64,000 bases of DNA from Buchnera aphidicola (Aphis nasturtii) (GTDB lineage: Bacteria; Pseudomonadota; Gammaproteobacteria; Enterobacterales; Enterobacteriaceae), in the NCBI RefSeq assembly GCF_005083345.1, contig NZ_CP034888.1, forward strand, positions 566,332 to 630,331. The letters are read 5' to 3'. A program made the position numbers and the translations under genes. Below are positions 34,119 through 36,379 of the stretch, in pieces. The notes beneath the pieces were generated by a model. That model saw only the letters and a list, made by a program, of their open reading frames with translations, was not told where the DNA came from and ran no database searches. Each line of letters begins with the position of its first letter. The first letter of the stretch is position 1.

Positions 34119-35006
34119 TTGGCTAAAAAATTAAGAAAATTTATGTTTTTTTATTGTTCGTACAAATGGATAATTTTAGCTTTTTTATTAATTAGTTTTC
34201 AAGCAAAATTTAAAAAACACATCGAAAAAAAAAATATTAATAAAATAATATTCATAAAAAATATAAATCATTATCAAAAAAAAATAATTGAACAAAAAAA
34301 CAAATTTACTATATTAATAGACCCAGGGCACGGTGGGAAAGATCCAGGATCGATTGGGCATACAGGGTTACAAGAAAAAGAAATAACGTTAAAAATTGCT
34401 ATTAGACTAAAAAAATTATTAGATAATAATAAATTGTTTCAAGCAGTTTTAACTCGTAACAATGATTCTTATTTATCTTTAAAAAAAAGAAGAAACTTTT
34501 TAAAATATCGAAACGTAAATTTACTAGTATCTATTCATGTAGATTCTTCACAACAACCATATGTGTCAGGAACATCAATTTGGATTATTTCAAATAATAG
34601 AATGCATCGTGAAATTAATAATTTTATAAAAAATACAAAAGAAAAAATTTATTTTTCTAAAAATATTAAAGATGCATTTAAAAACAATCAAAATAATATA
34701 TATTTAAAAAAAACTATTCTTGATTTACAACTTCATAGTTTTCAAGCTATAGAAATTGATCTATCACGTTATATATTTCAAGAATTTAAAAAAGTTGTAA
34801 AAATTAAAAAAATACAACCCAATTATGCCAGTTTAAGCATATTAAGTTCTATAAATACACCATCTATTTTAATTGAAACTGGATTTATTACAAATTTCGA
34901 AGAAGAAAGAAAATTAAGAACAATTTCCTATCAAAAGAAGGTGGCTAATGCTATCTACATTGCATTAAAAAATTATTTCCAAAATAAATCTACATCAAAT
35001 GCTTGA
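34119..35006 (+). CDS. amiB: N-acetylmuramoyl-L-alanine amidase, minimal AmiB
   Basis: Zinc amidase that splits septal peptidoglycan so daughter cells separate. The zinc ligands and catalytic Glu are visible in LIDPGHGGKDPG (His), GLQEKEITLK (Glu), LVSIHVDS (His) and the catalytic ILIETGF. E. coli AmiB has 445 residues with an AMIN targeting domain and a C-terminal LysM. Here an N-terminal membrane or signal segment (about residues 12-30) is followed after a short linker directly by the amidase domain, so AMIN and LysM are absent. The start is a TTG at 34119 or an ATG at 34143. The gene begins 16 bp after tRNA-Gly. Confidence 0.9.
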   Translation: MAKKLRKFMFFYCSYKWIILAFLLISFQAKFKKHIEKKNINKIIFIKNINHYQKKIIEQKNKFTILIDPGHGGKDPGSIGHTGLQEKEITLKIAIRLKKLLDNNKLFQAVLTRNNDSYLSLKKRRNFLKYRNVNLLVSIHVDSSQQPYVSGTSIWIISNNRMHREINNFIKNTKEKIYFSKNIKDAFKNNQNNIYLKKTILDLQLHSFQAIEIDLSRYIFQEFKKVVKIKKIQPNYASLSILSSINTPSILIETGFITNFEEERKLRTISYQKKVANAIYIALKNYFQNKSTSNA

Positions 35007-35131: not shown

Positions 35132-35338
35132 TTATTTAGTCATTTTAAAACGTTTTTTAAATCTTTCAACACGTCCTCCAGTATCAATAATTCTTTGTTT
35201 TCCAGTATAAAATGGATGACATTTTGCACATATATCTAGATTTAGATTATGATTAATAGTTGAAAAAATTTCAATTATATTTCCACATGAACAAGTAGCT
35301 TTTATCTGAGAATAATAAGGATGTATTTTTTTTTTCAT
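35132..35338 (-). CDS. rpmE: 50S ribosomal protein L31 (zinc form)
   Basis: Bridges the ribosomal subunits. The 68 residues compare with 70 in E. coli. It is the zinc-binding type, with Cys in the ATCSCGN and DICAKCHPF segments, and [18 protein letters not shown] is conserved. priA is divergent from it in E. coli, and cytR and ftsN lie beyond. Here the neighbour on that side is the FtsN remnant. Confidence 0.96.
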
Positions 35339-35425: not shown

Positions 35426-35672
35426 ATGGATCACAATCAAAATAAAATTAATTCAATGTATTTTAAAAAAAAAAAAAATTAAATTTAACAAATATAATTT
35501 ATTTACTATTCTATTAGTCATAATTATTTTTTTAATTTTTTTAAATATATTTTCAAAAAAAACAAATGATACACAAAAAAAAATATTTATCCAACAAAAA
35601 GAAGACGAAAATAAGCTACCTGATAAACCAAAGGAGAGATGGAAATATATTAAAAAATTAGAAAATTTATAA
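35426..35672 (+). CDS. ftsN: Minimal FtsN-like division protein, A14 tract
   Basis: FtsN activates septal peptidoglycan synthesis in the divisome. An ATG at 35426 opens a short basic N-terminus that runs into 14 A (35465-35478) and stops at once as sequenced. Removing one A (or adding two) joins it to an open frame ending at 35672 and gives 81 residues. These comprise a Lys-rich cytoplasmic stretch, one membrane helix (about residues 24-42, NLFTILLVIIIFLIFLNIF) and then LPDKPKERWKYIKKLE. That motif matches E. coli FtsN LPPKPEERWRYIKELE (residues 75-90), including W83, Y85 and L89, which are known to be critical. The long linker and SPOR domain are absent. Synteny agrees: E. coli has rpmE-cytR-ftsN-hslV-hslU. 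Whether it is made depends on slippage at the A tract. Confidence 0.72.
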
Positions 35673-35848: not shown

Positions 35849-36379
35849 GTGACCACAATATTAAGTGTAAGATTAAAAAATAAAGTAGTAATCGGAGGTG
35901 ATGGACAAGCAACTTTAGGCAATACTATTATGAAAAGTAATGTCAAAAAAATTAGAACTCTTTATCACGAAAAGGTAATTGCTGGTTTTGCTGGAGGAAC
36001 TGCAGATGCTTTTACTCTATTTGATATGTTTGAAAAAAAATTATCTATGTACCAAGGTCAACTACAACGATCAGCGATTGAATTAGCCAAGGACTGGAGA
36101 TCTGATAAAATGCTTAGAAAACTAGAAGCATTATTAGCAGTTGCTGATAAAGATAGTTCATTAATTATTACTGGAAATGGAGATGTAATACAACCTGAAG
36201 ATGATTTAATTGCGATCGGATCAGGAGGGTCTTACGCTCAATCAGCTGCGCGTGCATTAATAGATAATACTAATCTTAACGCTAAAAAAATTGTAGAAAA
36301 ATCGTTAAACATTGCCGCAAATATTTGCATATATACAAATCATATTTTTACCATAAAAGAATTACTTTCAGAAAAATAA
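35849..36379 (+). CDS. hslV: ATP-dependent protease subunit HslV
   Basis: Proteolytic subunit of the proteasome-like HslUV protease. The GTG start gives (M)[19 protein letters not shown], and the catalytic Thr follows the initiator. The 176 residues are the same length as E. coli. [27 protein letters not shown] and [16 protein letters not shown] are nearly unchanged. It is preceded by an AAGAGG ribosome site and followed 9 bp later by hslU. Confidence 0.97.

Follow-up and report, generated by a model that had tools for sequence, protein, structure and literature searches.

A minimal FtsN in Buchnera aphidicola, split by a run of adenines and probably still decoded

Just upstream of hslV, Buchnera aphidicola carries what is almost certainly the orthologue of FtsN (interval 35426-35672). 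Of the protein there remain a short tip on the cytoplasmic side, a single membrane helix and the E-motif, and a long run of adenines places the start and the motif in different frames. The remnant is probably a functional minimal FtsN (mini-FtsN) that is decoded across this run, either by slippage or through mixed run lengths. The window, that is, the whole stretch of DNA analysed here, is 64 kb long (G000:C1:566332-630331) and belongs to a 641-kb genome in three contigs (G000); the features around the locus are listed in Table 1. Over its first 6000 bases the leucine plasmid of this genome shares 95.5% identity with the plasmid of Buchnera from Aphis urticata, the top match among 49 Buchnera records, which places the bacterium in an Aphis aphid. 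The names rpmE and hslV are those we take the two neighbours to have (hslV was also matched by search), and the amidase is presumably AmiB-like.

Table 1. Features of the ftsN locus, in window coordinates
Feature	Position	Strand	Remark
AmiB-like (presumed) N-acetylmuramoyl-L-alanine amidase	34119..35006	+	Pfam Amidase_3, E 9.3e-47
rpmE (name assumed), divergent neighbour	35132..35338	-	
N-part (ATG + 18-residue frame, cytoplasmic tip)	35426..35482	+	TAA 35480-35482 after A run
A14 run, N-part and C-part thereby in different frames	35465..35478	+	
Mini-FtsN C-part, own frame, 63 codons + TAA	35481..35672	+	NCBIfam FtsN E 5.7e-6, below cut-off
Transmembrane segment LFTILLVIIIFLIFLNIFS	35499..35555	+	top 19-residue hydropathy, mean 2.97
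E-motif LPDKPKERWKYIKKLENL = E. coli FtsN 75-92	35616..35669	+	12/18 identical
TAA stop	35670..35672	+	aligned with E. coli FtsN codon 93 (CAG)
hslV (name assumed, also matched by search), downstream neighbour, as for E. coli ftsN	35849..36379	+	

Identity and frame of the remnant

Descent from FtsN is argued from the adjacency to hslV, which ftsN also adjoins in E. coli, from the top NCBIfam match, and from the distance between the membrane helix and the motif W, which is 29 residues in the window and in E. coli FtsN alike. When E. coli FtsN 75-92 is slid along all six frames of the window (BLOSUM62, ungapped), this site scores 71 and the runner-up 24; the E-motif pattern has a single match in the window and none in 100 dinucleotide-block shuffles. 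The W at 35640, the Y at 35646 and the L at 35658 stand for W83, Y85 and L89 of E. coli FtsN. For the 63-residue C-part, FtsN is the top NCBIfam match (NF008179 / TIGR02223), far below the family cut-offs (26 bits vs 525; 18.9 vs 107.65), and in Pfam none of the three C-parts submitted had a match that reached the cut-off. An AlphaFold2 model of the C-part has helices at 11-51 and 60-69 (mean pLDDT 78.3, pTM 0.36), the transmembrane segment being part of the long helix.

What the mini-FtsN shares with E. coli FtsN is thus the hslV neighbour, the single membrane helix, the W83/Y85/L89 E-motif and the spacing between helix and motif. Unlike E. coli FtsN, it ends at the position of codon 92, has no third helix, no Gln-rich linker and no SPOR domain, and is split by A14. 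SPOR had no match in the G000 genome or in any other of the 41 Buchnera-type genomes searched, a set that does not include G003 and G030. In E. coli, amidases of the AmiB kind make the denuded glycans to which SPOR domains bind; an AmiB-like amidase is present in 34 of the 43 genomes though the search of the 41 brought up no SPOR. The RDYV/KDYV start is not recognisable in the Buchnera N-part, in contrast to E. coli, where it is present, and to several symbionts with KDYV/KDYI. In E. coli FtsN, D5 in this cytoplasmic start contacts FtsA (PMC9525312).

A sequence-only reading of the window had proposed an FtsN orthologue between rpmE and hslV, reduced to a tail, one helix and the E-motif. Its identification and placement are borne out by the E-motif match, the hslV adjacency and the NCBIfam best match, and the reduction by a stop that falls three residues after the L89 equivalent: as the alignment to E. 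coli shows, ftsN has here been cut at codon 93 to the short tip, the helix and the motif. The same reading took the interval for one intact 81-residue frame, and there it fails. The frame is not open: the 247 nt of the interval are not divisible by three, and A14, lying between the start frame and the motif frame, rules a single open frame out; no longer run of A or T occurs anywhere in the window. Translation from the ATG at 35426 gives MDHNQNKINSMYFKKKKN, 18 residues, and then meets a stop; inspected by eye, the window has no ATG, GTG or TTG in the motif frame from the run to the motif.

Conservation, frame state and constraint among relatives

Of the 36 genomes of the genus, G000 among them, all but G030 yielded hslV (35), and the motif lies upstream of it in 31 of the 36. 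It was not seen upstream of hslV in G004, G019 and G025; two more genomes are unscored, G003, in which the C-part reads N, and G030, in which hslV was not found. A profile search of 43 whole genomes recovered the same 31 carriers and one genome of a related genus (G053), and the profile made from the motif rows brought up no additional same-genus copy in these 43 genomes. All 31 carriers have a stop three residues past the L89 equivalent. None of them varies at the W, the Y, the L89 equivalent or the last L, although the first three owe this in part to the choice of rows, which began from the pattern W.Y..L. Over the 1953 codons of the 31 genomes the C-part frame contains no stop, whereas the other two forward frames hold 185 and 209. 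The random substitutions or stops in W/Y/L that would have told against the sequence-only reading were thus not seen in the 31 carriers.

Is the broken frame peculiar to the window? A start upstream of the run is found in 30 of the 31 carriers, the window included, and many of these starts are MY..NKINSMYFKK-like; they were chosen by pattern, that of L024 by eye. From start to motif, the frame is open in 13 and broken in 17 of these 30 genomes with both halves, so that, besides the window, it is not intact in 16 of the other 29. L014 (G002), which has lost its start, is left out of these counts; L016 and L022, in which start and motif are in register with a stop between them, are scored as broken. 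The longest A run between the halves measures 8-19 in all 30 genomes and 9-19 in all 17 broken ones; the window's A14 exceeds the about 9 or more A looked for at a break. The registers divide 15 : 9 : 6 for frames 0, 1 and 2, and in two of the 15 frame-0 genomes a stop separates the halves, which would call for two frame changes; a bias to one direction of slippage was sought in the 30 genomes and not found. Openness in 13 of 30 gives p 0.25 against one third, and selection for openness is not clear. On a tree of 27 scored genomes (L016, L022 and L024 omitted) the frame state changes at least seven times; no member of the clade L011, L012, L015, L016 and L115 is open, nor is L001, L005 or L009, and many tips may have broken only recently. 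In the 43 genomes, internal stops occur in none of 34 amidase matches and none of 37 FtsI-type matches, and FtsW is broken in one of its 37 matches; the 35 hslV genes of the same-genus genomes have no internal stop either.

To judge by its substitutions, the FtsN remnant is under purifying selection. In 36 pairs among the nearest nine genomes (window included), FtsN dN/dS ranges from 0.12 to 0.66, against 0.017-0.072 for hslV in the same nine; FtsN is overall far less constrained. Grouped by frame state, with each group computed alone and no test between groups, pooled FtsN dN/dS is 0.40 in four sister or near-sister pairs with both frames broken (Fisher p 1.5e-5), 0.47 in three pairs with both open (p 0.0026) and 0.60 in four mixed pairs (p 0.015). 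On these ratios, constraint where the frame is broken resembles constraint where it is open. It is visible in the last 18 codons of the broken pairs, which carry 14.5 synonymous changes on 38.8 sites and 9.5 non-synonymous changes on 177.2; the transmembrane segment and the linker are only mildly constrained. G002, compared with its sister, gives 0.55 (p 0.12); its start is gone and so is part of the motif, within LPPKP, while its FtsL segment (see below) is exact. Because the mini-FtsN is missing in G004 and G019, which keep FtsW, and decaying in G002, it is taken to be dispensable in some lineages.

FtsW, FtsL and the decoding of the remnant

FtsW is present in 37 of the 43 genomes, two of which (G003 and G030) are unscorable for the mini-FtsN; 32 of the 35 scorable ones have it, and the three that keep FtsW and lack it are the same-genus G004 and G019 and, outside the genus, G079. 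None of the six FtsW-less genomes, the same-genus G025 and five of other genera, has a mini-FtsN (Fisher p 1.9e-5 for the association, a p-value that ignores kinship). FtsL runs in parallel. The Buchnera protein keeps the AWI segment as WRNLI[IL]EK, for which E. coli has WRNLILEENA (the L86/E87/A90 region), and ends about 8 to 19 residues past it in the rows examined. Of 35 same-genus genomes read, 33 have the segment unchanged, all 31 FtsN carriers among them. The three FtsW-positive genomes without a mini-FtsN have it gone (G004, and G079, in which the FtsN motif is not recognised either) or altered (WRELMIEK in G019); in G053, which has a mini-FtsN, it is a divergent LRNLSIELN. FtsB is short too: a stop-to-stop frame of 69 residues in the window genome (G000:C1:451900-452450, L195), and frames of 69, 69 and 73 in G016, G013 and G027.

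Given the conservation and this co-loss, we hold with good confidence that the mini-FtsN acts by activating FtsWI, and it is very likely functional in most of its carriers; the inference of function draws on the conserved W/Y/L and on co-loss with FtsW and the FtsL AWI segment. In the E. coli model, FtsN W83-L89 lies against FtsL L86/A90 and FtsI (PMC10390529); the second helix of the E. coli FtsN E domain suffices for division when overexpressed, whereas FtsN with W83A and Y85A combined does not sustain it (PMC9525312). By analogy, the Buchnera E-motif would be held 29 residues outside the membrane helix, would bind between the FtsL AWI segment and FtsI and, once bound, would turn on septal peptidoglycan synthesis by FtsW-FtsI. 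There would be no SPOR-based enrichment at the septum, and localisation would rest on the complex itself.

If the motif is under selection, how is it reached from a start in another frame? Full-length product would come from the smaller share of messages or ribosomes in which the frame shifts within the run, by transcriptional or ribosomal slippage, and genome copies with other run lengths might help supply in-frame product. For the window strain we lean towards a frame change on the A run as the main route. What favours slippage is FtsL, which has the same layout, with a poly-A run (longest 8-18 A) directly before the conserved segment. In 34 same-genus genomes, all scored by script, its frame is open in 15 and broken in 19, and 18 of the 19 broken ones share one register; on the tree, 11 of 12 inferred frame changes are between frames 0 and 2. 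In the window genome (G000:C1:244450-245050, L179) an A12 run breaks the FtsL frame before WRNLIIEKN. The shared register is the one that would be reached by adding one A to the message or by the ribosome stepping back once (-1). Against slippage count the lack of an FtsL-like register bias in FtsN and the window's own register, which is other than that of its FtsL and is not restored by one insertion. In the 30-genome tally the FtsN/FtsL states are broken/open 8, open/broken 7, broken/broken 6, open/open 5 and unscored 4, with no correlation evident between the two.

Rescue of this kind has precedents. Endosymbiont genes frameshifted at poly(A) are rescued by transcriptional slippage in Buchnera of R. 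padi and in Blochmannia (PMC3164680, PMC3017870), and earlier work cited in the latter gives 30% of transcripts as full-length for frameshifted genes (PMC3017870). In Buchnera homopolymers, insertions far outnumber deletions among the run errors of transcription; these insertions were found with no frame-restoring case (PMC5574713). The mini-FtsN resembles slippage-rescued genes in the long A run at the break, in the conservation on both sides of it, in the recurrence of the break in relatives and in the purifying selection of broken lineages (the four pairs at dN/dS 0.40). What sets it apart is that the interrupted gene encodes a septum activator and that FtsL, the presumed partner, is interrupted too.

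The same split admits other explanations, and they bear on different parts of the reading. Buchnera is highly polyploid. The run may differ in length between genome copies or cells, or the assembled length may be off, a fraction of the DNA then being in frame with no need of recoding; the length of A14, the range of 8-19 in relatives and the at least seven changes of state over the 27 scored genomes are all compatible with this, though we consider it unlikely as the whole explanation, since mixed lengths poorly explain a 9-A broken FtsL common to five related genomes (G032, G011, G021, G035 and G002), and FtsN is broken in 17 separate genomes, not in one assembly. That the window strain has lost ftsN function, and that the motif is left only because the frameshift is recent, is a decidedly unlikely account: the frame is indeed broken, the motif is absent in 3 of 36 same-genus genomes and G002 is decaying, but broken pairs are constrained about as open ones are, the motif persists in 31 genomes, and it is co-retained with FtsW and the FtsL AWI segment. 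Translation of the C-part alone, from a non-standard start after the run, would yield a membrane peptide without the tail; helix and motif both lie in the C-part, which is open in 31 of 31 carriers, but this route is scarcely credible given a start upstream of the run in 30 of the 31 and, in the window, no ATG, GTG or TTG before the motif.

One further alternative concerns the target. FtsI is the sole transpeptidase match in 10 of the 31 same-genus carriers, the window genome included. The second type, which we take to be PBP1b, is present in G065 with no match to FtsI, FtsW or FtsN, and no transpeptidase of either type was matched in G025, G094, G087, G125 and G126. The mini-FtsN tracks FtsWI rather than the second transpeptidase. 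Since FtsI is the only match in those 10 carriers, it is unlikely that the second synthase alone is targeted, and with G065 having the second type and no FtsN, the bifunctional PBP1b is disfavoured as the target; that it, rather than FtsWI, is what the mini-FtsN acts on is very unlikely. There is biochemical support for it: PBP1b is bound and stimulated by the E-peptide of E. coli, which in the same assay did not do so with PBP3, FtsW-PBP3 or FtsBLQ (PMC7939390).

Truncated FtsN in other symbionts and what the remnant means

A cut to the core is not unique to this lineage: the same is found in other symbionts, Serratia symbiotica among them. A truncated FtsN is already published there: in strains SCc and STs, aphid endosymbionts like Buchnera, FtsN is cut to a small portion, which was argued to be sufficient from E. 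coli FtsN 1-119, and most such diminutions are common to other small genomes (PMC5013485). In what was consulted of that description there is no mention of a frame split at poly-A, of a parallel in FtsL or of co-loss.

Upstream of hslV in other Enterobacterales, mostly with small genomes, 24 stretches were examined: six have FtsN and SPOR in one frame, seven an FtsN motif frame without SPOR, and 11 no match; one of the seven, G129, has a weak SPOR piece elsewhere. Once named records are included, four other symbionts, Wigglesworthia (L104), Gullanella (L082), Serratia symbiotica (L058) and G073, stop FtsN three residues past the L89 equivalent and a fifth, G123, stops it two residues past, so that five other symbionts end FtsN at Buchnera's position, within one residue. 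The remaining SPOR-less motif frames, other than G073 and G123, run 16-88 residues further, as does L123. This last, the mini-FtsN of G053, keeps WKYIEEL and continues for 16 residues after the L; G053 yielded no Amidase_3 match. The stop is TAA in the three Buchnera rows compared and TGA in Wigglesworthia; L058, L082 and G073 have TAG where codon 93 of E. coli is CAG, and a single C-to-T change at this first Gln codon after the motif would be a simple route to the TAG cases. In L058 (Serratia symbiotica PERIS-14S) the sequence past the TAG still resembles full-length FtsN, which is why its truncation is read as young or early, or the gene as a pseudogene; a piece of SPOR is found there in a separate open stretch. 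The gap between rpmE and hslV in G079 (L119) holds a 76-residue frame with a basic tip and a helix and, by eye, KKPQEQYFFFKKYK near its end; it has no FtsN profile match and may be a diverged FtsN that has lost W/Y/L.

How could this gene have escaped notice? A 2023 survey scores ftsN at 0% in 38 Aphidinae Buchnera and also at 0% in Lachninae, and infers that Buchnera turns on septal synthesis by other means (PMC10591338). Probably ftsN was missed there because it is short and often split. No earlier report of a Buchnera mini-FtsN was met in the literature consulted on Buchnera ftsN/ftsL or Wigglesworthia ftsN. Against the 0% of the survey (PMC10591338) now stands a constrained FtsN trigger in 31 of 36 same-genus genomes, and with it a caution that frame-broken endosymbiont genes are not to be scored as absent. 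In a speculative extension that we regard as improbable, the FtsN E-motif and the FtsL AWI segment would be a septum switch pared down to two touching segments, both behind slippery A runs, whose slip-dependent release would be a low-level, dose-limiting throttle on division, tolerated or used, and not damage. With Buchnera and five other symbionts cut at the same place, nature seems to have repeated the classical truncation experiment of E. coli, and FtsL, shortened to match, provides nature's own test of the model in which FtsN, FtsL and FtsI together activate septal synthesis.
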